34,233 bases of DNA from an uncultured Caryophanales bacterium. GTDB lineage: Bacteria; Bacillota_I; Bacilli_A; RF39; UBA660. Under the pieces are notes generated by a model. That model saw nothing but the letters and a program-made list of their open reading frames with translations. It was not told where the DNA came from and did not search any database. Below, piece by piece: positions 5,135 to 34,233 of this stretch; position 1 is the stretch's first letter, and each line of letters begins with the position of its first letter. The stretch is from the NCBI GenBank assembly GCA_948433085.1, contig CAOJDP010000010.1, positions 1-34,233 of the forward strand, given 5' to 3'. A program made the translations under genes and the position numbers.

Positions 5135-5151
5135 CCCTACAATACCTCTGT

Positions 5152-5180
5152 GAGCCTCTAGGAGGCTCTAGGAGGGCTTT
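5152..5180 (+). terminator. Terminator after the helicase gene
   Basis: GAGCCTC, loop TAG, GAGGCTC is a perfect 7-bp stem at 5152-5168. It is followed by a second GGAGGGC and a TTTTATT run. It starts 18 bp after the helicase stop. Confidence 0.75.
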
Positions 5181-5238
5181 TATTATATAAGGCGATAAAA
5201 TTTTTGTAAAAATAGATATACCCCTGTAGCACTTATAG

Positions 5239-5759: not shown

Positions 5760-6050
5760 TACTTATTGCGTAGTCACGAGAAATTTTAGCCCACAATACT
5801 ATAAATTTTTCTTTTAGATTTTAATATCTACATTATTGAATAACTACGACTAGATAAATTAACGGTCTGAGTTCCATTGTGTCGCCACAAGTGTTCAGTA
5901 TGACGGTTAAGGTAGACTTTATTCTTATTCAGATTTGGGCTGATAAGAGAATTACTCCTAAATTGTTCCGTATCTAGCGTGAGCAAGTTTTTTAAGTATT
6001 ACAATGAAGTAATAACTGGACATTATCTCTACTTGGGTCCTTTTTTAAAA
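5760..6050. ncRNA. Possible structured non-coding RNA (weak)
   Basis: This stretch has no open frame of note, yet is less A/T-extreme than its flanks. It contains a local hairpin with TTGTG, loop TCGC, CACAA inside a CTGA/TCAG closing stem near 5867-5900. On the plus strand it ends with GGAC...GTCC followed by TTTTTT near 6025-6048, a weak terminator. Large RNAs of phage-like elements (for example the GOLLD or ROOL classes) occur in such gaps, but I cannot match any known consensus by eye. Confidence 0.2.
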
Positions 6051-6170
6051 TGTAGAATTAGGTATTCTTGAACTTACCATAATAATATATACGAACTTAA
6101 TAACTCAGTATAGTTCTTAACCTTATATTTCTATACGAAGTACATAGTGTCCCGTTTACTAAAATATATT

Positions 6171-6199: not shown

Positions 6200-6790
6200 T
6201 TATATTAGGTTTTTGGTTAGTATTTTGTCGCCTAAGCCATATTTTAGTGCTTCTTCTGCATTAAACCATCTATCCTTTAACTGAATGTCGTGTCTAACTT
6301 GCTTTATGGTTTTACCTGTATTTTCTGCTAGTAGTTTAATAATGCGCTCATTCAATGTATTAGTATGTTCATAATCAATTTTCAATTCTCCAACTTTTCC
6401 CATATTAAATGATGAAACTTCATGTATCATAACTTCACTATTAGGTGTTATGTATCGTTTGCCTTTAGTTCCACCACTAAGAAGCACAGCAGCCATTGAA
6501 GCACAACGACCTATACATATTGTCTTAACATCACTTTTAACCATTTGCATAGCATCATAAATAGCCATTCCTGCTGATACTGCTCCACCTGGGGAATTGA
6601 TATAGAATATTATATCCTTTTTACTTTTAATAGTATCTAGTTTTAACAACTGGTCGACTATATTCTCTGCAACTTCTGCATCAATGGTTTTATTCAAACG
6701 AATTATACGATTATCAAATAAATTAACATTTGAGGGAGTTTTAGGCTTAGTATCTTTCTTGGTTTTTCTTTTTGTTTTAGTATTACTCAT
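6200..6790 (-). CDS. ClpP-like serine protease of a mobile element
   Basis: Peptidase S14 fold. Its catalytic Ser lies in G-R-C-A-S-M-A-A, the His in M-I-H-E, and an Asp in L-K-D-R-W-F-N-A-E-E-A, so the triad looks complete. F-Y-I-N-S-P-G-G and Y-G-L-G-D are family hallmarks. The first ~25 residues are unusually Lys/Thr-rich. I prefer the second ATG (6790), 10 nt after AGGAAGG; the ATG at 6799 is only 2 nt from it. No Clp ATPase is nearby, so it would need host ClpX/ClpC or act alone, as phage prohead ClpP-type proteases do. It is last in an operon ssb - MBL - clpP with 6-15 bp gaps. Whether it is a capsid, regulatory or tagged-protein protease is unknown. Confidence 0.9.
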   Translation of the reverse strand: MSNTKTKRKTKKDTKPKTPSNVNLFDNRIIRLNKTIDAEVAENIVDQLLKLDTIKSKKDIIFYINSPGGAVSAGMAIYDAMQMVKSDVKTICIGRCASMAAVLLSGGTKGKRYITPNSEVMIHEVSSFNMGKVGELKIDYEHTNTLNERIIKLLAENTGKTIKQVRHDIQLKDRWFNAEEALKYGLGDKILTKNLI

Positions 6791-6805
6791 ATTCTTCATT
6801 CCTTC

Positions 6806-7993
6806 CTATATGTTATAAGACTTTTTATTTTTTAAATGTTTAGTTTTGTATGGTAATTTTAGTTTTTCAAAATCGTGTGAGTTCTCTCCGTGTATAGGTA
6901 TAATTACATTAGGCTTAACAATATTACAAACTTCTGTAATACCTTCTTTAGTTGCGTGTCCACTGGTGTGTAAGTAGTGGTAATCTTTTGGAACAAACTT
7001 AACAATACTTTCATCAGCAGTAGATCCTTGCAAATATCCTAGCCATTGAGAATAGATAAATATATTATCTTTGAAGTTAGGACTGTTAATAAACCTCTTT
7101 GAAAAGTAATTACTTCGTACTAGCATACAAAAACCATTATCCAACATTTCTTGATAAAACTTTTTATCAAAACTTTTAACATTTGAAAAGTTGTAATAAT
7201 CTTTATATTTTTTGCTAGTCTTTGTTACATAATCAAGTATCTCCTTTTGGTAGACATCACATATAAATAATTTCTTTCCTGCTTCTTCGTTTGCGTGGTA
7301 AAAAGAGGCAATTCTATCAATATTCGTAGAGGCACACATTATAAAGACATACTTATTATTTTTTATTAAGTCAACTGCTTCTTTCTGTAGCATTAATTCG
7401 GACATAAAAACCTCATCAAGTCTTGAAAGGGTAGTATGCTCACAAATAAGAACATCCACTTTTCCTATTTCCTTAAGTGCTTTAGGTATTGTTTCACCAC
7501 TAGGACCGTGTGTACGAAAATCTCCAGTATGTAAAACTCTTTTTCCTTCTGCTTCAATAAGAAACATATAACTATCAAAAGCCGAATGGTTTACTCGAAT
7601 CGGTGTTAAAGTCATATCTCCAATTTTTAAAGGTACATCTTGTTCAAATGTTTTAAAAGTTTCTAATCTATCAATATGCTCCTGTGTTACTTCTGCAACT
7701 TTAGGTTCTTGCATTTTCTTTTGATAAATAGTAAATATCTCTTTTGCTTGTTCTCCAATGTAGATAGGTATATCTTTTTTTACTTGCATATATTCGCCAA
7801 TATGGTCTAAATGATAATGGGTTATAAACACAGCATCACATTTTTTACTAATCTTAGCGACATTCACTTTTACTTTACTTGTACTATTTGGAAGATTAGA
7901 GCCTATATCAATAAGTATTCTAGTACTTTTAGTTTTAATTTCGGTTACACAACCCCCAATTTGATTAATACCCCTGTGAATTTTAATTTGCAT
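6806..7993 (-). CDS. Metallo-beta-lactamase-fold hydrolase, RNase J / CPSF-like
   Basis: A 395-aa MBL protein. The metal site H-Y-H-L-D-H is near residue 59, N-H-S-A-F-D-S near 135, G-D-F-R-T-H-G near 157 and C-E-H-T-T-L near 186. A beta-CASP-like insert contains C-A-S-T-N-I-D-R. The C-terminal H-T-S-G-H-A and I-I-P-I-H-G-E motifs are those of RNase J and CPSF73-type nucleases. It is shorter than housekeeping RNase J (about 555 aa) and lacks that C-terminal domain. AAAGGA lies 9 nt before the ATG. Its position between ssb and clpP in a mobile block suggests a nucleic-acid role in element replication, mRNA control or host takeover. The substrate cannot be told from sequence. Confidence 0.88.
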   Translation of the reverse strand: MQIKIHRGINQIGGCVTEIKTKSTRILIDIGSNLPNSTSKVKVNVAKISKKCDAVFITHYHLDHIGEYMQVKKDIPIYIGEQAKEIFTIYQKKMQEPKVAEVTQEHIDRLETFKTFEQDVPLKIGDMTLTPIRVNHSAFDSYMFLIEAEGKRVLHTGDFRTHGPSGETIPKALKEIGKVDVLICEHTTLSRLDEVFMSELMLQKEAVDLIKNNKYVFIMCASTNIDRIASFYHANEEAGKKLFICDVYQKEILDYVTKTSKKYKDYYNFSNVKSFDKKFYQEMLDNGFCMLVRSNYFSKRFINSPNFKDNIFIYSQWLGYLQGSTADESIVKFVPKDYHYLHTSGHATKEGITEVCNIVKPNVIIPIHGENSHDFEKLKLPYKTKHLKNKKSYNI

Positions 7994-8008
7994 AAAATAT
8001 TATCCTTT

Positions 8009-8323
8009 CTAACTTTGAGTTGCTAGTTTTTGATTACTTGATAAAAATGTTACTCTATCTGCAATTACACGAATTATATTATTTTCTATACTTTCAATTC
8101 TTCCTTTTATTCCTATTAGGTCATTCTTTTTACAATATTCAAATGTATTACTTCCAACATAACTTGTTAATTCAATAGGAATATAATCTGTGTCATATTC
8201 TCCATTTGCATTTTTAAAATTACGCATAACTTTTAACATTAGTCTATATGAAGTCTTCTCCTCACTTTCCATTTTTTCAATATCGTTGTTTATTCTGCCA
8301 ATAAGCACAACATTGTTCATCAT
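8009..8323 (-). CDS. ssb: Single-stranded DNA-binding protein
   Basis: OB-fold SSB: it begins M-N-N-V-V-L-I-G-R-I, followed by a beta-strand region with D-Y-I-P-I-E-L and G-I-K-G-R-I-E-S. It is short (104 aa) and lacks the acidic tip (D-D-I-P-F type) by which host SSB recruits repair and replication proteins, so it is probably an element-specific protein. Two adjacent ATGs follow AAGG; the upstream one is used here. First gene of the ssb-MBL-clpP operon. The inverted repeat at 8343-8366 lies immediately upstream and may control it. Confidence 0.88.
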   Translation of the reverse strand: MMNNVVLIGRINNDIEKMESEEKTSYRLMLKVMRNFKNANGEYDTDYIPIELTSYVGSNTFEYCKKNDLIGIKGRIESIENNIIRVIADRVTFLSSNQKLATQS

Positions 8324-8411: not shown

Positions 8412-8442
8412 ATAAAAAGAGAGATTGCTTAACACAATCTCT
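8412..8442 (-). terminator. Terminator of the lipoprotein / RsgI-domain operon
   Basis: On the minus strand AGAGATTG, a 7-nt loop and CAATCTCT form a perfect stem followed by CTTTTTATTTT. The stem begins at the stop codon of the gene at 8441. Confidence 0.8.
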
Positions 8443-9595
8443 AATACGGAAGATTTTTATAGATGTTATAAGCATCTAAATGCTCTTTATATTGAAGATA
8501 CGCTACTTCGACTTGTCTTTCCTGATAAGGTATATTTACTTTTTCAGCATTTAGTCTATCTTCATAATATTTAAAATATCCTTTTGCATCCTCACAATAA
8601 GTAGTATAGTATTCTTTTTCTGCTTCTTCAACACTGACAGAACATTTTTCTAATCCAGTTTTATATTCATCATACTTTTTAAGTGTTACTTCATGGTCAG
8701 ACTTATACCAGTCTAAGACTCCTTTTTCTGACTCCCAATCTTTTCTAACTTCTTCTACTTTAGGTGCAAAATAATTCATCCAAAATTCCTTACAAGCATG
8801 TTTATCAATAGCATCTTTACAACCTAATTTAGAAGTAGACACAAATTTATGATACCTTCTTTCGCCATATGGGTTAACATCTTTACCATCTAGATAATCT
8901 CCATAGCCATCTGCATCTACAACATATATGCCTGGTGATATTTCTTTCTCAGTTGTAGGTTCTGGGTCTTTCTTTGGCACTTCATTTTGACTCGGCTTCT
9001 GACTATTATTAGGGTTTTTATTATTAGAAACATTATCTTTATTTGGCGAATTTGTTTCTTGATTTACATTATCTTTTTCTATTTTGACTTCTTCGTTTTT
9101 TAATAATTGATTTGATATTTTGCTTAACTCCTCATTTGAATTAACACTCACTTTATAAATTTCTTTATTTTTGGAATTTTCATTCATATATGCTTGAGCA
9201 TTATTCCAGTTGCTATATATCTCAACTTTATCAAATTTAATATTATTATTTTTTGTAGTTTCTGTTATTAAGTCTATAACCTTATAAAGAGTATTATCAT
9301 TCTGTAATAAGTCAATATCTTTAAAAATATTCTTAGCATCATCATTAACCAACTCATATTTTAAAACAATAGGCTCATCACATTTATTATTATTGCAAAC
9401 TTGTTTATACTCCAATTTTATTGAAGGGTTAATCTTAATGTAAGCAACATAATTACTTGTAGTTTCACTTTTATTTACATTAGTATCTTTATTATTACCT
9501 TTAAATAGGAATATGCCTCCAACGATTAAAATAGTTAATATCAATACAGAAATTATACTAATTAAGATTTTTTTGTTTTTTAAAAAATTACTCAT
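8441..9595 (-). CDS. Membrane-anchored protein with RsgI-like domain
   Basis: A 384-aa protein with a single transmembrane helix (about residues 8-30), so the bulk faces outside. Residues about 47-145 carry the pattern of the middle extracellular domain of RsgI-type anti-sigma factors: I-K-I-N-P-S-I-K-L, then L-V-N-D-D-A-K-N-I-F and a predicted helix T-L-Y-K-V-I-D-L-I. The cytoplasmic sigma-binding domain that precedes it in true RsgI is missing. A Pro/Asn/Lys linker (about 175-215) leads to an unrecognised Cys-containing, Tyr-rich, helical C-terminal part (about 225-384). The same leader GAGGAGTGAAAAATTT precedes its ATG and that of the upstream lipoprotein gene, 30 bp away, so both are one operon. 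The ligand is unknown. Confidence 0.75.
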   Translation of the reverse strand: MSNFLKNKKILISIISVLILTILIVGGIFLFKGNNKDTNVNKSETTSNYVAYIKINPSIKLEYKQVCNNNKCDEPIVLKYELVNDDAKNIFKDIDLLQNDNTLYKVIDLITETTKNNNIKFDKVEIYSNWNNAQAYMNENSKNKEIYKVSVNSNEELSKISNQLLKNEEVKIEKDNVNQETNSPNKDNVSNNKNPNNSQKPSQNEVPKKDPEPTTEKEISPGIYVVDADGYGDYLDGKDVNPYGERRYHKFVSTSKLGCKDAIDKHACKEFWMNYFAPKVEEVRKDWESEKGVLDWYKSDHEVTLKKYDEYKTGLEKCSVSVEEAEKEYYTTYCEDAKGYFKYYEDRLNAEKVNIPYQERQVEVAYLQYKEHLDAYNIYKNLPY

Positions 9596-9625: not shown

Positions 9626-10681
9626 TTATTTATGTGATATTCTTACCGATTTAGAATAAGAACCACAACTTATTGTATATTCAGTAGCATAAGGGTATTC
9701 TTGATTATAATTTTGTATTCTTTCATTACTGCTAATTTTAATATCTGTATTAGAATCCACTCTTATTTTTTCGCCTCGTAATAAGATTTCAACAATATTA
9801 TCTACATCTTTTTTTGTGCATTTTAAATTTTTATCATTGTTATTATTGTTATTATTATTTACTTCTTCGCCTTTTTTTAGAACTTCATTATCTAAACTAT
9901 CTATTTCATCTATCCAGTAAAGAAGCCCCTCTGTTTTAAATTCTAATTTAATTTCTTGTAAATCGGTAACATATTCTAAATATTCTTCTTTGCTCATATT
10001 ACCATCTTCCCAATCATAACGGGTAAGAAAACCTAAACCATTAGTTGTTTCATTAGTACTTTTTACATATCTTTCTGAAGTGTTATCGTAGTAAATTTCA
10101 CCCCAATTACGATTTCTTTCTTCTTTATCTTTTAAACTTGATACAGATACTGCATAATAACCTGTATAACCTGTATTTTTATTATTCTCTATAAGCCTTT
10201 GTGATAGATAAATATCTTTAGCAGAATTATAATATAAATTATCCCAATATTCTGCCCAATCTAAAAATTCTTTTATTTCTTTTGTTTCCATATCTATTGT
10301 ATATGCCATAATTACTGGTGTGTCTTCAAGTCGTTCAAGTTCACCTTTTGGAATTTCTCCTAGTAATATAAATTCTACAATTCCATCATTATTTAAATCT
10401 TTAAAAGTGTATGTTCTATTTTTTGAAGAATTTTTATAAGACTCTTTGTACTCTTGAAATGAGCCTGATGTATTAGTTAAGTTATTATATGCTACATAGG
10501 AAGCGTAACCTTTAATATACTCGTTCTTCTCTTTATCGTTATAGTTATTAATATAATAGTCTTCAACATTTTGAATGCTTATTTCATCTTGTTTAGAATT
10601 ATTATTTTCCTTTTCCTTTCCACAGCCTGTTATTCCCATTAATAAGGTTAAACATAATAAACATAAACCTATTTTTTTCAT
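9626..10681 (-). CDS. Lipoprotein of unknown function
   Basis: An exported lipoprotein: M-K-K-I-G-L-C-L-L-C then a hydrophobic stretch and the lipobox G-I-T-G-C, with Cys at about residue 20. I chose the ATG at 10681 (GAGGAG 10 nt upstream); an upstream TTG would overlap the Shine-Dalgarno. The mature part is acidic and Asn-rich, with a poly-Asn run near residue 280. It includes D-L-N-N-D-G-I-V-E-F, resembling a calcium-binding or FG-GAP-type acidic loop, as in lipoproteins that measure or bind at the surface. No catalytic motif is recognised. It is first in a two-gene operon and is preceded by an attenuator-like leader (10700-10819). Confidence 0.8.
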   Translation of the reverse strand: MKKIGLCLLCLTLLMGITGCGKEKENNNSKQDEISIQNVEDYYINNYNDKEKNEYIKGYASYVAYNNLTNTSGSFQEYKESYKNSSKNRTYTFKDLNNDGIVEFILLGEIPKGELERLEDTPVIMAYTIDMETKEIKEFLDWAEYWDNLYYNSAKDIYLSQRLIENNKNTGYTGYYAVSVSSLKDKEERNRNWGEIYYDNTSERYVKSTNETTNGLGFLTRYDWEDGNMSKEEYLEYVTDLQEIKLEFKTEGLLYWIDEIDSLDNEVLKKGEEVNNNNNNNNDKNLKCTKKDVDNIVEILLRGEKIRVDSNTDIKISSNERIQNYNQEYPYATEYTISCGSYSKSVRISHK

Positions 10682-10699
10682 AAATTTTTCACTCCTCAA

Positions 10700-10819
10700 T
10701 ATTATAACAAAACAAAAGGAACACGATACTGACTTGTGTTCCGACTGCTTAATGTTGGCTTAACTGCATACTGCAACCAACATTTAATACAATGTCGGAT
10801 TTCAGCACTTCTAACCGAC
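10700..10819 (-). promoter_or_regulatory. Attenuator-like structured leader (or small RNA) before the lipoprotein gene
   Basis: Read on the minus strand, segment 1 GTCGG (10819-10815) can pair with segment 2 CCGAC (10798-10794). Segment 2 can alternatively pair with segment 3 GTCGG (10745-10741). Segment 3 overlaps the first arm of a hairpin GGAACAC (10742-10736) / GTGTTCC (10724-10718), which is followed by TTTTGTTTTGTT. A separate stem TGTTGG/CCAACA (10782-10777 with 10758-10753) lies between. Pairing 1:2 would free the terminator; pairing 2:3 would block it. This is classical attenuation logic, seen directly in the sequence. The trigger is unknown and no known riboswitch class is recognised. 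A self-terminated small RNA is the alternative. Confidence 0.55.
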
Positions 10820-10825
10820 AATATA

Positions 10826-10855
10826 ATTTTAGCATAAAAATTCTAAAAATGTCAA
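10826..10855 (-). promoter_or_regulatory. Promoter of the structured leader and lipoprotein operon
   Basis: On the minus strand, -35 TTGACA (10855-10850), an 18-bp spacer with TATG just before, and -10 TAAAAT (10831-10826). Transcription would start at about 10819, right at segment 1 of the leader. Confidence 0.7.
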
Positions 10856-10871: not shown

Positions 10872-10906
10872 TACCTTACAAAATTTTGTAAGGTAATACT
10901 TTACAA
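10872..10906. promoter_or_regulatory. Perfect 24-bp palindrome plus extra half-site (operator)
   Basis: TACCTTACAAAA followed by its exact reverse complement occupies 10872-10895. A third half-site TACTTTACAA follows at 10897-10906. The site ends 20 bp before the Xre gene start and lies 17 bp upstream of the -35 box of the opposite promoter. It is therefore placed to control the regulator itself and possibly the divergent leader-lipoprotein operon. Confidence 0.75.
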
Positions 10907-10925: not shown

Positions 10926-11177
10926 ATGAGATTAAATAAACCACTTAAAAAACCCAACTTTGATACAGACATATACAATACCATTCGTAAGAACATTAAA
11001 AAATATCGAAAACTAAAGGGTCTAACATCTGAAGAATTATCAGAAATGGTTAATTTATCTCACGAGTTTATAAGACAAATTGAAAGTGAGAAATTAGCAT
11101 ATAACTTTTCTGTAGATACTTTATATAAAATTGCTGTTGCATTAGATGTTAGCGTAGATACTTTACTAAAGAAATAA
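10926..11177 (+). CDS. Small Xre-family (HTH_3) transcriptional regulator
   Basis: An 83-aa protein consisting almost only of a Cro/CI-type helix-turn-helix: I-R-K-N-I-K-K-Y-R-K-L-K-G-L-T, S-E-E-L-S-E-M-V-N-L-S, then F-I-R-Q-I-E-S-E-K and L-Y-K-I-A-V-A-L-D-V-S-V-D-T-L-L. GAGGTG lies 6 nt before the ATG. The perfect palindrome directly upstream is the expected autoregulatory operator. It is the only plus-strand gene in this part and sits between copy 3 of the 25-bp repeat and the lipoprotein operon. Confidence 0.9.
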   Translation: MRLNKPLKKPNFDTDIYNTIRKNIKKYRKLKGLTSEELSEMVNLSHEFIRQIESEKLAYNFSVDTLYKIAVALDVSVDTLLKK

Positions 11178-11470: not shown

Positions 11471-11850
11471 TGGTGGAGCTGAGGAGAATCGAACTCCTGT
11501 CCAAAAATATCCCAGTAATAGTATCTACAAGTTTAGTTGATTATTTTATTTCCTAAACTATGTCAGTAACCAACACTCCATAGCCTAGTAAGTTCCGAAA
11601 AATTCATTGTTACCCTAGAACAAAATAACAGTATATCCTACTCAATCAAGCCCTCTTAAATTCCCGTAGGAAAAGAATAAAAGAAAGCCGCATTCCTTAA
11701 TTCAATTAAGCGAAGGCTACAGTATTCTTATTGAATAAAGTAGCAAATGCATTTTTTAATTTGTTTCCATTTAATTTTTGTTTGTACGTAAGGTGTACTC
11801 CCCACTTGCAACTAAAACGAGAACACTCCTGTCGAAACCAAAGCAGCCCC
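11471..11850 (-). ncRNA. ssrA: Transfer-messenger RNA
   Basis: About 380 nt. The 5' end reads GGGGCTGCTTTGGTTTCGAC. The 3' end has the T-arm G-G-A-G-T-T-C-G-A-T-T-C-T-C-C and encoded CAGCTCCACCA, and the two ends pair as the tRNA-like acceptor. The mRNA-like part contains a frame ending ...F-N-K-N-T-V-A-F-A followed by TAA (11708-11706); the resume codon cannot be fixed by eye. It rescues stalled ribosomes with SmpB, encoded two genes upstream. Its last 11 bases are repeated at 1288-1298, which marks it as an integration site for the accessory block on its 3' side. The CCA end is intact, so the gene should be functional. Confidence 0.96.
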
Positions 11851-19972: not shown

Positions 19973-21240
19973 CTAATATTTAATAATCGTATTTATTATA
20001 TCCGATTTAACTATTTGTTCAAACGATTCGTTAGCACATTTTTTTGTTTCTTCATTGCTAATATTATAATAATTTTCTGTGGTTTCTACTCTACTATGTC
20101 CAAGTACACTAGACACATCTTTAATTTCAATTCCACTTCGTAATGTCTTAGTTGTAAAGCTTCCTCTTAAATCATAAAATCTACAATTCTTTATATTTAG
20201 TTCTTCATGGATAATTTTAAAAGGATATCTAAGCATATCTGTTCTAGAACATTTCCCATTCTTTTTTGTAAAAACTAAACTAACTTGTTTTCTATTTTTA
20301 GATTTATGCTTAAGATCAACTATTTTATACTCTACAAGCTTACCATATTTATTTTTAATTTCTTCTAAAGAATAATTATGATAGCTTTTTCTGTATAGTT
20401 TTTTGTTATTTTCTTGATTCTTTTTGTAGTTTTGCAAAGCCATTTTTAAAGTGTCACAGATATAAACATATCTACAACTACCTTGTGTTTTAGTCGTACC
20501 TAAATACCATCTACCAGTTTCATCGCTTTTCCTTGCATATATTGTTTTATTAACTTTTATTATTTGTTTTTCTAAGTCTATATCATCCCATGTCAATGCT
20601 AATACTTCTCCTGTTCTCATTCCTGTATAACATGCAGTTAAAAATGTACAAGTAAAAGTATAGTTATTTTTGAACCTTAATAGTATCGTATCAATTTCTT
20701 CTTGGGTATAGATATATTTTACATCGTTTTTTTTACCTCAAAAAAATAGACTCTTGGCAATTGTAAATCAGCAGCCAGATTGTTTTCAATAAATCTAAAA
20801 TAATAAGCAGCATCTCTGAGTGAACTCCTAATTACCTTTTGATAATTTCTTAATGCATCTTTTGAATTTACTCTTTGAGCAATTCTAAGTAGTACTTGAT
20901 TTAAAATATATGGTGTTATATAAGCAAGTTTATATTTACCCATTTCTTTTTTTTATGGTTTCAAACGCTTCAGAATATCTTTTTGCTGTTGTATATTTAT
21001 AATTAATTTCAAAATACTCCTTCATCCAATAATCTAAATAATCGGAATATGACATTTGTGATTGTCTAAATGTTACACCTCCATTAATATACTTTTCATA
21101 AGCAAGTTGTCCAGATGAATATCTTCATTCTGAGTTTTAAATCCTGACTTATTAATAAACTTCCTTTTACCATTAATAGTTCCAATCTCAAATTGATATT
21201 GATAAACCTTTCCTCTTTTTCTTACATTTACTCTTCTCAT
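19973..21240 (-). pseudogene. Tyrosine integrase of E2, three frame breaks
   Basis: Homologue of the E1 integrase, same domains. It starts at 21240 (AAAGGA before ATG) with an arm-binding domain R-K-R-G-K-V-Y-Q-Y. Breaks: a one-base loss near 21120; an A8 run (20947-20954) that needs A7; and an A8 run (20727-20734) that needs a -1 shift. The last is at exactly the site used in E1. With all three repaired the product is about 422 aa. The catalytic part has G-M-R-T-G-E, Y-D-L-R-G-S (Tyr where HxxR normally has His), L-G-H-S-R and E-N-Y-Y. The first two breaks look like decay; the third may be programmed. Confidence 0.8.
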
Positions 21241-21307: not shown

Positions 21308-22360
21308 TTAATCAATTAATAATTCTTTTTCTTCATTAACTTGTTTTTGTAATAATTCTAATTCTTTGATATTCTTATTGTCTTTTAATACTTTCATTTG
21401 TCTTCTTGCTGAATTATTGAGTCTAACAAGTCTTTCATTTTGAGGTACTTTTTCTTCAATCAATAGAGCATTCGTATTTTGAAGATTATTTAATATCACT
21501 AAATGTAATAAATCAGTGTAATCTCTAATATTTCCTTCTTTTGCAAGTTTTGGATTATTATCTCTCCATTCTTTAGCTGTCATACCAAATAATGCAACAT
21601 TTAAAACATCAGCTTCTTCAGCATATACAAATTTCTTTTGTGCTTCAGTAAGCGTTGGAACTATATAAGTTTTTACTGCATCAGTGTAATCTCTAATATT
21701 TCCTTCTTTTGCAAGTTTTGGATTATTATCTCTCCATTCTTTAGCTGTCATACCAAATAATGCAACATTTAAAACATCAGCTTCTTCAGCATATACAAAT
21801 TTCTTTTGTGCTTCAGTAAGCGTTGGAACTATATAAGTTTTTACTGCATCAGTGTGAACTACATAATTTAACTTTGAAAGTATTCTATTAGCTTGCCAAT
21901 CTATTTTTTCTTGATATGCTTCATTAGTTTTTAATCTTTCAAATTCAGTTATTAAATATAATTTGAATTCTGGAGATAACCAACTAGCAAATTCAAAGGC
22001 AATATCTGGATGAGCAAAAGTTCCAATGCTATATCTTCCACCTTTAGAGATAATGCCTATTGCATTGGTTCTTTTAATCCATTGAGATGGAGACATTGCA
22101 AAAGAGTTTCTACCATACTCAGTTTTAATTTGGTCGAATTCGACCAAATTAAAATCAGGATTATGAATTTCTTCCCATAAACCAATGTAATCAATAGTTG
22201 TAATTCTTCTTAGCCAATTCTTTACTGTAAAAGATGGATCACTAGAATTTTGATACTTAGCCAAATCTGTTAATGAAATATAATTTACATTTCCTACTCT
22301 TAAAATTCCTACTTTATTTTCTTTTACAATTATTTCCGCTATTACTTCATCTTTTTTCAA
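21308..22360 (-). CDS. KilA-N domain protein with an internal tandem duplication
   Basis: A KilA-N family protein, a DNA-binding-type domain common in phages and mobile elements. I-S-L-T-D-L-A-K-Y begins the domain, followed by W-L-R-R, N-S-F-A-M-S-P-S-Q-W, G-R-Y-S-I-G-T-F-A-H-P-D-I-A-F-E-F-A-S-W-L-S-P-E-F, and L-I-T-E-F-E-R-L-K (about residues 25-150). The C-terminal part is helical. A 56-residue block is present twice in tandem without change, so the protein is 350 aa; with one copy it would be 294, which I take as the usual length. The frame is intact. Cargo of E2; its function there is unknown (regulation, superinfection control and defence are possibilities). Confidence 0.85.
   Translation of the reverse strand: MKKDEVIAEIIVKENKVGILRVGNVNYISLTDLAKYQNSSDPSFTVKNWLRRITTIDYIGLWEEIHNPDFNLVEFDQIKTEYGRNSFAMSPSQWIKRTNAIGIISKGGRYSIGTFAHPDIAFEFASWLSPEFKLYLITEFERLKTNEAYQEKIDWQANRILSKLNYVVHTDAVKTYIVPTLTEAQKKFVYAEEADVLNVALFGMTAKEWRDNNPKLAKEGNIRDYTDAVKTYIVPTLTEAQKKFVYAEEADVLNVALFGMTAKEWRDNNPKLAKEGNIRDYTDLLHLVILNNLQNTNALLIEEKVPQNERLVRLNNSARRQMKVLKDNKNIKELELLQKQVNEEKELLID
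21513..21848. repeat. Exact 168-bp tandem duplication inside the KilA-N gene
   Basis: 21513-21680 and 21681-21848 appear identical, and a third start TCAGTGT follows at 21849. 168 is divisible by three, so the frame is kept. The identity implies a very recent event, in contrast with the old, diverged repeats around it, or an assembly artefact. Confidence 0.9.
22123..22154. repeat. Perfect 32-bp palindrome in the KilA-N coding region
   Basis: TTTTAATTTGGTCGAA followed by its exact reverse complement, with no loop. It lies in the codons for N-L-V-E-F-D-Q-I-K near residue 75. Confidence 0.9.
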
Positions 22361-23896: not shown

Positions 23897-25134
23897 CTAA
23901 AATTTAGCTCTCAAATTTATATCTATTTCTTTTTCTATTGATTCACAAATTTTAATTAAATCATTAGTAGTACTAGTAATATAGTAATTTTGTGTTGTTT
24001 CAATTCTACTATGACCTAATAGTTTAGAAATATCTTTTATCTCATTTCCATTTCTTAATGCTTTTGTAGCAAAGCTACCTCTTAAATCATAAAATCTACA
24101 ATTGATTTCTAATTCATGATGAATAATTTTAAATGGATATCTTATAATATCTGTTCCAGAATATGTTCCATCTTTTCTAGTAAATACCATTTCTACTCTA
24201 TTATTTTTAGAATAACTTTCCACAATTTTATATTTAACTAACTTGCCATATTTATTTTTCACCTCTTCTAGAATATATCCTTTGTACTTTTTTCCATATT
24301 GCTTTTTTAAATTATTTTGTATATTTTTATAATCTATTAGTACTGCATATAAACTATTACAAATATAAACCTCTCTTTGACTACCTAGTGTTTTAGTTGT
24401 GCCTAAATGCCATCTACCATTTTCTTCATTATCTTTTGCATACACTGTTTTATTTATTTTGATAATTCTATTATCTAAATCTATATCATTCCAAGTTAGC
24501 GCAAATACCTCACTAGTTCTCATACCTGTATAGCAAGCAGTAAGAAACGCACATACAAATACTTTATTATCTTTAAATCTATTTAAAATTATTTCTATTT
24601 CATCTTTAGTATAAACATGTTTTACATTATTTTTTTTGATTCAAAGGATAATACTCTAGGTATTTCTAAATCACAGGCTATATTGTTTTTAATAAACCCA
24701 AAATAATATGTTGCATCTCTTAAAGAACTTTTAATAACCTTTTGATAATTTCTTAATGCTTCTTTCGTACTAGATGTTTGATATAACTTTAATAATGCTT
24801 GATTTAAAATATATGGAGTTAGAACTGATAATTTATAATTACCTAATTCTTCTTTTATATTACCAAAAGATTCTTTATATCTCTTTGCTGTAGAATATTT
24901 GTAATTTATTTCAAAATATTCTTTCATCCAGTAATCTAAATAATCTCCATATAACATATTGCATTCATTAGTAGTTACCCCGTTAAGGCGTTCATCATAT
25001 GCTTTTTGTCCTGCAATATACGCTTCATTTTTAGTTTTAAAGCCTGATTTTGTTATTTGCTTTCTCTTTCCATTTACTTTACCTGCTTCAAAGCAATATT
25101 GATATACATTACCACGTTTTCTAATATTGAGCAT
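23897..25134 (-). CDS. Tyrosine integrase of E1, needs a -1 frameshift at an A8 run
   Basis: Two open frames, 25134-24622 and the following -1 frame to 23897, together encode a 412-aa integrase. The first has the arm-binding domain (R-K-R-G-N-V-Y-Q-Y ... K-S-G-F-K-T) and SAM-like core-binding domain (Y-L-D-Y-W-M-K-E-Y). The second has the catalytic domain: G-M-R-T-S-E, T-T-K-T-L-G-S, Y-D-L-R-G-S, L-G-H-S-R and Q-N-Y-Y. The switch is at A8 (24637-24630). The zero frame reads S-K-K-I-M then TAA; the -1 frame continues S-K-K-N-N-V-K-H-V-Y-T. The E2 integrase has the same arrangement at the same codon. The HxxR His is replaced by Tyr in both. No other break is seen, so it could be functional through frameshifting. 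Confidence 0.85.
24630..24637 (-). promoter_or_regulatory. Putative -1 slippery site (A8) in the E1 integrase
   Basis: The zero-frame codons TCA AAA AAA ATA ATG TAA contain the heptamer A-AAA-AAA. A one-base back-slip gives AAT AAT GTA and keeps the integrase reading. No strong downstream stem is obvious and no upstream Shine-Dalgarno stimulator is seen, so transcriptional slippage (A9 mRNAs) is equally possible. The E2 counterpart is 20727-20734. Confidence 0.6.
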
Positions 25135-25203: not shown

Positions 25204-26365
25204 CTATTTATTAAATATTTGATTAAAATATATTTTCATTTCTTCTATACTTTTAAAACGGTTATTGATATTATAATCCGTACCTTTTAATACAAATTCT
25301 TCTAATTTGGTATCACTATTTTTCTCTAAATTTGATTTTCCTGTCATAACAAAATATATAAGTCTTGTTAGTGCGTATGTTTCATATTCAACAGAATAAT
25401 TTTTGAAGCCAATAATAGCCAAATTGCTATCATTTAGTGATTCTTTTACCTCAGAATCCGTGCTTGTTAAATTACTATTTTCTTCCTTAACTAGACCAAA
25501 ATCTGAAGCTTTTATAATCATTAAATCATCGTATTTTTTTTACCAGAACATTTGTTAAACTAATATCTCTATGAAGATATCCCTTTCGATGAATATATGA
25601 AAAGGCTTTAAATAATTGATTTACTATATTAACTCTTATATCAGTTGTTATTTTATTATTATTCTTACTTATAAATTCATACAATGTTTGATTAACATAT
25701 TCTGCATAATATTCATTTCTTTCTTCATCATAATTATAAACCTCTAAAATATATGGTGATTTCAATTCTTTTAAAGTTTGATATTCTTTTTTAAATCTTT
25801 CTATTTCCTTTTCATCTAAATCTTTCTTTGCTTGTTTTATTACAAAGGTCTTATTATAAAACTTATCTACATATTTAAACACTTTTGCATAAGAACCCTC
25901 TCCAATTAAATGAATAGGATACCTTTTCTCTTCTAACTTGTTCACTATTTTTACAGACCTTGTCATTGTAAATATTGGTTCATACTCAATCAACTTAATT
26001 TTTTTTAAATCTTTAGGAATTGGACTACCTCCACTTAAAAGCAAAAATTTTTTACATTCTTCTATAAAAGAAGCATAATCTTTATCAATTTCAAAAGATA
26101 ACGATGTTTCTTTTAATACATATTTCATATCTTCATATAATTTTATATATTCATCTAATTCTCTACTTTCGTTTGCGTTAAAATGACCGTTTGTTTTTCT
26201 ATACATAAAATTAAGCAGACGATTAAATTCCTGATGTAAAATAGCAAATAATTTTTTTAAATACACGTTATTTATATCATTATACAATTCTTCTGTTCTT
26301 AGTACTCCTTGTAATTCATATCTATCATATTTTTGACTTAAAAAATATTCAATATTTACTGCCAT
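25204..26365 (-). CDS. Hanks-type protein kinase, split at an A8 run
   Basis: A Ser/Thr protein kinase-like protein. An N-terminal helical domain of about 165 residues (unrecognised) is followed by the kinase fold: G-E-G-S-Y-A-K-V-F (P-loop), V-I-K-Q-A-K (ATP Lys), and H-R-D-I-S-L-T-N-V-L (catalytic loop with Asp and Asn). After a frame change at A8 (25541-25534) it continues Y-D-D-L-M-I-I-K-A-S-D-F-G-L-V-K with the metal-binding D-F-G. The last ~95 residues (K-N-Y-S-V-E-Y-E-T-Y-A-L-T-R-L-I-Y) complete the C-lobe. A7 at this run would give one 386-aa protein; as written the first frame ends 3 codons after the run. The ATG follows GAGGTG. It is cargo of E1. Such kinases on mobile elements are sometimes anti-phage systems, but that is inference. 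Confidence 0.8.
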
Positions 26366-32016: not shown

Positions 32017-33273
32017 TTATTTTTGGAGTTTTGTTATCAAAAATGATTTTCCATTGTAGAGCCACATCCATAAATTTCCTTCACTATCAATTACGCTATT
32101 CTCTATTCTATTATAATCAGAATATGAACTCGCTACTGCACTTTGGAATTTCATTTCTGGCATGATTTGGCTTGGAATTGCATTATTGTCTGATTGAACA
32201 GCACTATTCGCTCCAAAGCCCCACAGATTTCCATCTTCATCAATAACCATTGCATGGCTATTTCCCGCTGACACACTTTGGAATTTGATTCCAGACATAA
32301 TTTGTGCTGGGGTCACTCTATCTTCCGTTGTTCCATCTCCTAATTGCCCTCTATCATTGTTTCCCCAACTCCATAGGTTTCCGTCTTCATCGATCGCCAT
32401 TACATAATCTGTTTCTCCTACATCAACTGTTTTAAATTTTTTACCTTCCATAATTGGTGTCTTTTCTATGTCAGTCATTATAAGTTCATCCTCCGTGTGA
32501 TCCGCTATAAAAATATAAGACCACAAGTTTCCTTCACTATCAATTACCATTCTATTTTCATTTCGAGTTGAAGCAGAAACATACTTCACTTTATCCGAGT
32601 TTGGAATGATTGAAGCTCTACCTATAATGTTATCCTCATCATCCATCGAGTACCATAGGTAAAATAAATCGCCCTCACTATCTATGGCTAGATTTCCACT
32701 AATCATTTTAAACTTTTTATTGGATTCATACTTTACTCCTTGTAGGTTTCCTTCCAATAATCCCATGTACCATACTGTTCCTTCACTATCAATTGCATAC
32801 CTCGGTGAGTTTATTCCAAGTGTAGGCCCTATTGCAACTTCATCGGGCTCTTGATTTTGTGTTTCTCCTCCTTTTACTACACTCTCTACCTTTCCATTTT
32901 GAATCGTTACTTCATATCCACTAAATGTTAACTTTCCTTCTTCTATGATTCCTTTGTCATTTAATTGAATATAATCTTCTTTTCCACTTGGTTTTTCTCC
33001 TTTGACTTCTATTAAGTCTCTTAAACAAGTTGTTTCACATGCATTTATTTTTACTATTTCATTTTTTGGTATTTGATACATTGTACTATCTAGTTGCCCT
33101 TCTACTTGATATTTTTCTACTGCTTCTATATATCCATTTCCACTTTCTTTTACTGCTCCTCTTCTTGCTTTTTCTACTACATTTAATATCATTGGTGTTG
33201 CAATAAGGGCTATGATTGCTAATATCACAATGACTGCCAACAATTCTATTAATGTAAATCCTTTTCTTTTCAT
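32017..33273 (-). CDS. Prepilin-type signal protein fused to RCC1-like repeats
   Basis: A 418-aa protein. It starts with a class III (type IV prepilin) signal: M-K-R-K-G | F-T-L-I-E-L-L-A-V-I, with cleavage after Gly5, Glu at +5 of the mature chain, and a hydrophobic helix to about residue 32. A pilin-like stretch to about 140 contains Cys79 and Cys83. From about 155 to the end are RCC1 / BNR-like repeats with the recurring A-I-D-E-D-G-N-L-W-S-W-G and G-Q-L-G-D-G-T-T-E-D, which should form part of a beta-propeller. The ATG follows AGGAGG. It is probably exported and displayed on the surface by a type IV pilus/competence-like system encoded elsewhere. A second gene with the same repeats lies upstream. 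Confidence 0.85.
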   Translation of the reverse strand: MKRKGFTLIELLAVIVILAIIALIATPMILNVVEKARRGAVKESGNGYIEAVEKYQVEGQLDSTMYQIPKNEIVKINACETTCLRDLIEVKGEKPSGKEDYIQLNDKGIIEEGKLTFSGYEVTIQNGKVESVVKGGETQNQEPDEVAIGPTLGINSPRYAIDSEGTVWYMGLLEGNLQGVKYESNKKFKMISGNLAIDSEGDLFYLWYSMDDEDNIIGRASIIPNSDKVKYVSASTRNENRMVIDSEGNLWSYIFIADHTEDELIMTDIEKTPIMEGKKFKTVDVGETDYVMAIDEDGNLWSWGNNDRGQLGDGTTEDRVTPAQIMSGIKFQSVSAGNSHAMVIDEDGNLWGFGANSAVQSDNNAIPSQIMPEMKFQSAVASSYSDYNRIENSVIDSEGNLWMWLYNGKSFLITKLQK

Positions 33274-33608: not shown

Positions 33609-34233
33609 CTATTTTTGCAACGACATTATGATAGTTGGTTCTAGTTCAGTGTCATGCTCATACCCCCACATCCATAGATTTCCATCTATATCAATCACTG
33701 ATGTGTATCCACTATATTCTTCATATTCACTTGCTGAAGCACTTTTAAATTTCGTTCCTTCTATAATTTTTATTGGAACTATTTTATCTTCTTTTGTTCC
33801 ATCGCCTAATTGACCTCTAAAATTATTTCCCCACCTCCATAGATTTCCGTCTTCATCTATGGCTATCGTATCACTGTTCCCTGTTGATATCATTTTAAAA
33901 TGAGTCCCTTCTTTAATCTGTACTGGAACTAATCTATCTTCCGTTGTTCCATCTCCTAATCGACCTCTAAAATTGTCTCCCCAGCCCCATAGGTTTCCGT
34001 CTTCATCTATCGCCATAGTACGATCGAATCCTGCGGATACGGTTTTAAATTTTGTACCTCCTTTAATTAGGACTGGATTTGCTTTATCTTCTGTTGTCCC
34101 ATCTCCCAGTTGACCATACCTATTACCTCCCCAACCCCATAGGTTTCCTTCTTCATCTATCGCCATTACATATTCTAATTCTCCTACATCAACTGTTTTA
34201 AATTTTTTACCTTCCATAATTGGTGTCTTTTCT
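33609..34233 (-). CDS. RCC1-repeat protein, cut by the window end
   Basis: The C-terminal ~208 residues of a second RCC1-like protein; the frame is open through the last base of the window. At least four repeats are seen, with A-I-D-E-E-G-N-L-W-G-W-G-G and G-Q-L-G-D-G-T-T-E-D units about 50 residues apart. The first visible residues (K-T-P-I-M-E-G-K-K-F-K-T-V-D-V-G-E) are almost the same as residues about 278-294 of the prepilin-RCC1 protein, and both end in L-Q-K. They are therefore paralogues, and the missing N terminus may also carry a prepilin signal. Repeated near-identical DNA between the two invites recombination. Confidence 0.85.
   Translation of the reverse strand, partial: EKTPIMEGKKFKTVDVGELEYVMAIDEEGNLWGWGGNRYGQLGDGTTEDKANPVLIKGGTKFKTVSAGFDRTMAIDEDGNLWGWGDNFRGRLGDGTTEDRLVPVQIKEGTHFKMISTGNSDTIAIDEDGNLWRWGNNFRGQLGDGTKEDKIVPIKIIEGTKFKSASASEYEEYSGYTSVIDIDGNLWMWGYEHDTELEPTIIMSLQK

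Follow-up and report, generated by a model that had tools for sequence, protein, structure and literature searches.

A new attenuator-type RNA family with a repeated GNAGUA tag in mobile-element operon leaders of uncultured Bacilli

The window, a 34,233-nt stretch of the genome of an uncultured Caryophanales bacterium, carries on its minus strand a leader of ~110 nt (about 10819 to 10708), read directly from the sequence immediately 5′ of a lipoprotein gene, which belongs to a real and new attenuator-type RNA family with an unusual repeated tag, GNAGUA. At the sequence level, the family is defined by a promoter, alternative folds, covariation in the P1, P2 and terminator helices, loop-to-loop complementarity, and enrichment and characteristic placement of the tag. 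That the leader works as a switch of this kind, a transcription attenuator, is likely.

Leader anatomy and promoter

The initial annotation had described three copies of a GTCGG/CCGAC segment, arranged so that pairing of the first two allows, and pairing of the last two prevents, a U-tailed terminator hairpin. All of these elements are present (Table 1), and since segment 3 overlaps the terminator 5′ arm, the 2:3 helix and the terminator are mutually exclusive. Beyond these, we found a middle hairpin (P2), an antiterminator helix that joins two loops (10808-10802 with 10732-10726) and the repeated GNAGU tag, of which only four or five copies are left in the window leader. In the folding check that had been proposed, the leader was more stable than all 200 shuffled sequences (z -4.0). 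The leader terminator is absent from the list of an automatic terminator scan of the window, probably because the scan accepts loops of at most 8 nt and this one has 11.

Table 1. Features of the window leader, its promoter region and operon, and tag arrays at other loci (array positions are those of the locus named; U, RNA; T, DNA).
Feature	Position	Strand	Remark
Segment 1 core GTCGG	10819-10815	-	Direct reading
P1 5′ arm (segment 1 as UGUCGG)	10815-10820	-	P1 covaries with 10793-10798
Segment 2 UCCGAC	10799-10794	-	Partner of segment 1 (P1) or segment 3 (antiterminator)
P1-loop strand GUGCUGA, outer antiterminator helix	10802-10808	-	Partner is UCAGUAU of terminator loop
Tag GAAGUG in P1 loop	10811-10806	-	Overlapped by GUGCUGA
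Middle hairpin P2	10751-10784	-	Two-sided changes in 6/6 counted pairs
P2-loop tags GCAGUA and GCAGUU	10774-10769, 10767-10762	-	
Tag GCAGUC	10748-10743	-	Overlaps segment 3
Segment 3 GUCGGA	10745-10740	-	Overlaps first bases of terminator 5′ arm
Terminator 5′ arm GGAACAC	10742-10736	-	Direct reading
Terminator loop AAGUCAGUAUC with outer antiterminator strand UCAGUAU	10732-10726 (strand)	-	
Terminator 3′ arm GUGUUCC	10724-10718	-	Direct reading
U tract TTTTGTTTTG	10717-10708	-	Direct reading
Whole intrinsic terminator with U tract	10708-10742	-	
Promoter TTGACA-18-TAAAAT, extended -10 TG	10826-10855	-	11/12 consensus
24-bp palindrome TACCTTACAAAATTTTGTAAGGTA	10872-10895		Checked as perfect; 5′ of -35, between divergent XRE gene and leader promoter
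Divergent small XRE-type repressor gene	10926-11177	+	Pfam HTH_3
Ribosome-binding site GAGGAG, first gene	10692-10697	-	Direct reading
First gene, lipoprotein	9626-10681	-	Signal peptide and lipobox (...MGITGCGK); ATG at 10681
Second gene, membrane-anchored protein	8441-9595	-	KINPSIKLEY motif; cluster F5
SSB gene	8009-8323	-	Pfam
Metallo-beta-lactamase fold gene	6806-7993	-	Pfam
ClpP-like gene	6200-6799	-	Pfam
Array L252 (genome G118)	5142-5207		9 tags
Array L253 (genome G118)	6002-6115		14 tags
Array L254 (genome G012)	6687-6772	-	10 tags

The good promoter noted earlier at the first segment was found as described, with its +1 predicted from the sequence near 10819. It is the only strong promoter and lies at a fixed distance upstream of segment 1, which argues against a start downstream of 10742, the contrary case that the annotation had raised. 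Promoters of the homologous leaders likewise match mostly at 11 of 12 positions, their -10 element ending 4 nt before the first aligned leader column. No short open reading frame with a ribosome site, as for a leader peptide, occurs in the window leader; three marginal GTG frames in other leaders are not conserved. The palindrome upstream of the promoter is, by its sequence, presumably a repressor operator.

Homologous leaders, covariation and alternative folding

Thirty-two loci in 31 genomes carry a homologous leader, and every one of these genomes belongs to the window's family of uncultured gut Bacilli. A genome of the window's genus supplied the first relative, at 80% identity, and a pattern search with the leader core further ones; with too short a pattern, matches on genome contigs were mostly due to chance, four being true. 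Covariance model R1 gave matches in 23 of 386 family genomes (E up to 0.1) and model R2 in 24 of 385 genomes of an order-wide sample (E up to 0.01); a class-wide sample gave none outside the window's own family, and pattern scans of IMG/VR with the leader core yielded nothing or chance coding matches only. The initial annotation had seen no T-box or known riboswitch feature, and in agreement with this Rfam matched only the tmRNA in the window, with no leader match at the gathering score, no convincing one at relaxed thresholds and no match either when the leaders and arrays of ten loci were scanned. Its suggestion of a new cis-regulatory RNA is borne out by the 32 leaders and their covarying helices. 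The final alignment (A3) has 34 rows, two of which (L212 and L213) have leaders identical to those of L099 and L058, apparently from the same contigs, and were counted once.

Covariation, which the annotation had asked of the homologues, was found in P1, P2 and the terminator. In A3, which was fitted to this structure and whose pairing counts therefore lean towards it, 95.4% of cells in these helices are paired, compared to 35-55% when the strands are slid. Two-sided changes occur in 13 of the 19 pairs, and 0 of 500 shuffles were as good on any measure, the shuffle controls, like the loop permutations below, taking no account of the relatedness of the leaders. The terminator helix is 95% paired over 31 distinct leaders, with two-sided changes at two pairs. 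Segments 2 and 3 are paired in 87% of cells (27-50% slid), but the covariation of their helix taken alone equals that of shuffles, as is to be expected of strands on which P1 and the terminator also impose their pairing; one 2:3 pair (columns 28:155 of alignment A2) changes jointly from U-A to C-G in L009, L099 and L183. Leaders L185, L186 and L219-L221 are divergent and lack P1, and the terminator or a helix is degenerate in L172 and L183.

When the nascent RNA is folded without the terminator 3′ arm, the 2:3 helix dominates in about two thirds of the 34 rows, and is usually lengthened by the helix between the P1 and terminator loops. The two loops of a given leader pair at -4.72 kcal/mol, compared to -3.81 when permuted between leaders (sd 0.25; p 0.00025) and -2.02 with shuffled letters. 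Loop changes are matched, with GUGCUGA:UCAGUAU in the window but GUGCUA:UAGUAU in L169, and L218 has GUUACUU:AAGUAAU. This complementarity could instead reflect a kissing contact between finished hairpins of the terminated RNA.

Operon and mobile-element context

The first gene, which has no Pfam match, carries the signal peptide and lipobox expected from the earlier description of a lipoprotein operon. Cluster F5, to which the second gene belongs, provides the first gene in some other elements, and a first gene of the related-looking cluster F23 matches RsgI_M. The genes for SSB, the metallo-beta-lactamase fold protein and the ClpP-like protein (6200-8323) are presumed to form the remainder of the operon; this gene set recurs in other elements. 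Among homologous leaders the first gene mostly encodes a lipoprotein, a secreted or a membrane-anchored protein, and the genes downstream share no common pathway. In rows with flank available, a divergent small repressor lies 100-150 nt upstream of most leaders. It is of the XRE type in elements with SSB, metallo-beta-lactamase, ClpP and primase, the window's type, and is replaced by a ribbon-helix-helix repressor (Pfam RHH_1) in others, including those of the sortase/FtsK type. These gene contexts agree with the location on a mobile element that had been suggested; similar DNA was not found in phages or plasmids.

The element lies just past the 3′ end of a tmRNA gene (11471-11850, minus strand) whose tag peptide ends VAFA (GNKLKNAFATLFNKNTVAFA); a second copy of the tmRNA 3′ end at the element's other side was sought in the window and not found. 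At locus L180, a homologous leader has some 1 kb ahead of it an Rfam match to ssNA-helicase RNA (44.5 bits, 517-566). Elsewhere on the minus strand of the window, short tyrosine-integrase-like frames (19973-20620, 23897-24523 and 24622-25134) are probably fragments of other integrated elements; a KilA-N protein (21308-22360) has in its translation about 56 residues repeated perfectly in tandem (DAVKTYIVPTLTEAQ...GNIRDYT); a protein kinase frame (25204-26365) is apparently split into an HRD part (25526-26365) and a DFG part (25204-25521); and a prepilin-type N terminus (N_methyl) is fused to RCC1 repeats, with more RCC1-like repeats in an adjoining partial frame (32017-33273 and 33609-34217).

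GNAGUA tags, stand-alone arrays and proposed mechanism

The leaders contain 98 GNAGUA tags, compared to 9.5 ± 3.0 in dinucleotide shuffles of the same set, which includes both repeated rows. Most have 4-6 tags in hairpin loops, about 7-20 nt apart. P2 loops, 10 to about 60 nt long, hold 42 GNAGU tags (2.6 in shuffles) that base pairing does not need, with two or more in 16 of 25 distinct loops and up to six or more copies; in L175 the run is expanded, to ten tags over the whole leader. In the terminating fold, 138 of 140 GNAGU tags are wholly unpaired (61 expected), whereas about half are buried in the antiterminator fold. From the nascent antiterminator to the terminating fold, the predicted mean unpaired probability rises from 0.40 to 0.86 for tags in the P1 loop, from 0.24 to 0.46 for those before segment 3 and from 0.37 to 0.94 for those in the terminator loop. 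Judged by their sequence, the tags look like docking sites for an RNA-binding protein; our literature search found no described bacterial protein that binds GNAGUA and no matching element leader.

A tag census of 117 family genomes, by pattern search only, also revealed dense non-coding tag arrays. In L252, L253 and L254, the tags recur about every 6-8 nt and lie mostly within a loop closed by UUGUUAG/CUAACAA, with promoter-like sequence before the array and a common terminator (GAUCGUC...GACGAU-U8) after it, and no antiterminator overlapping this terminator by inspection; L255 is a related hairpin series. Like the leaders, these arrays belong to the window's family, and each lies where a conjugation-type operon ends: just 3′ of a T4SS coupling protein gene identified by Pfam (L253), of a coupling-protein homologue identified by sequence (L254), and of a gene without Pfam match beside a VirB4-like frame (L252). 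The few array matches beyond the family look like simple repeats or lone chance hits; viral matches were rejected as coding low-complexity repeats.

In the mechanism that we propose, RNA polymerase would start at about 10819 and the emerging RNA could adopt either of two folds. In the terminating fold, segment 1 would pair with segment 2, and the middle hairpin and the terminator would form, with a stop at about 10710 that yields an RNA of ~110 nt; in the read-through fold, the 2:3 helix and the pairing of the P1 and terminator loops would lock the terminator 5′ arm. A putative factor, most likely a multimeric RNA-binding protein, would bind the GNAGUA tags. Since the terminating fold is predicted to leave those of the P1 loop, the stretch before segment 3 and the terminator loop more open than the read-through fold does, binding should favour termination, a sign that would also follow by analogy with TRAP; without the factor, polymerase would by default read through into the operon of surface proteins. 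The factor would be soaked up by terminated RNAs and by array RNAs of other elements. That the ligand is a protein, that it acts with this sign and that RNAs serve as decoys we infer; for the complete scheme, with a GNAGUA-binding factor that favours termination and array RNAs as possible decoys, we see an even chance. No single element protein is common to all elements compared, and hence a host-encoded factor is the simpler guess.

By binding to NAG repeats, TRAP keeps the antiterminator from forming (PMC7430163, PMC4347634), and the present leaders resemble the Bacillus trp leader that it controls in their mutually exclusive antiterminator and terminator, several short NAG-containing motifs and predicted repression by termination (PMC7430163, PMC4347634). 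However, TRAP requires unstructured RNA with 9-11 NAG repeats at intervals of 2-3 nt, in contrast to the fewer, more widely spaced tags here, and the genes behind our leaders encode mobile-element surface proteins. The HutP-controlled hut leader (PMC7430163) shares with ours NAG clusters near a terminator and, presumably, attenuation that depends on a protein, but here the tag has six bases and the antiterminator is loop-to-loop. TRAP (TrpBP, PF02081) and HutP (PF09021) were found in none of eight genomes, with Bacillus subtilis as positive control for both, and the leader therefore resembles the TRAP type in logic at most and does not belong to it.

Among the alternatives, the foremost, though unlikely, is that the locus chiefly serves to make the ~110-nt terminated RNA, which would act like CsrB or RsmY as a small decoy and titrate a GNAGUA-binding host protein, with operon read-through incidental. 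CsrB/CsrC and RsmX/Y/Z resemble our RNAs of about 110 nt or the longer arrays in having an intrinsic terminator and a tag repeated in loops and linkers, and the loop exposure of multiple tags documented above is of their kind. The stand-alone arrays, with their own promoter-like sequence and terminator, also fit a decoy. CsrA, though, recognises a GGA motif rather than GNAGUA, and the present leader is borne by mobile elements and heads an operon; its terminator lies directly 5′ of the first gene's ribosome site and its antiterminator pairing is kept, neither of which a pure decoy needs. Rather improbable, too, is the opposite sign, in which the tag-bound factor favours read-through. HutP on its NAG clusters does prevent terminator formation (PMC7430163), and a factor reading single-stranded terminator-loop tags could destabilise the hairpin, but the predicted exposure of tags is greater in the terminating fold and HutP itself is absent from the eight genomes.

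A metabolite riboswitch with P1 plus P2 as its aptamer would account for the conserved loop sequence and the classical expression platform; we consider it very unlikely, given P2 loops of widely varying length filled with a repeated short tag, unlike a single pocket, the lack of an Rfam match and downstream genes without a common pathway. Control by antisense RNA, as in copy control of plasmids pIP501 and pT181, is highly improbable: the mobile DNA and mutually exclusive hairpins are shared, but the best antisense promoters into the leader score at the chance level of shuffled DNA (8.6 vs 8.4 of 12, with 10.4 for sense promoters), no replication gene follows directly downstream, and a tag repeated within one molecule is not expected of such a design. 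Equally remote is an RNA of the put/EAR kind, which would modify RNA polymerase in cis for processive antitermination, as the position just before a terminator at the start of long element operons might suggest, since among the arrays at transfer-operon ends L252 and L254 have their next same-strand gene about 370-440 nt away and L255 has none for over 4 kb.

The attenuator reading, which we prefer, thus describes a family of RNAs that Rfam lacks, clearly built as a switch and spread across unrelated mobile elements of uncultured bacteria. More tentatively, and on balance doubtfully, it may represent a new RNA-protein system in which a GNAGUA-binding protein runs loop-loop attenuators of mobile-element operons and is contested by the array RNAs of different elements; elements living in one host would then sense or disturb each other by way of this common host factor. 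The leader points to a protein that would recognise RNA by a precise tag, GNAGUA, which is usable as bait, and would give a handle on how the conjugative and integrative elements of this group silence their operons.
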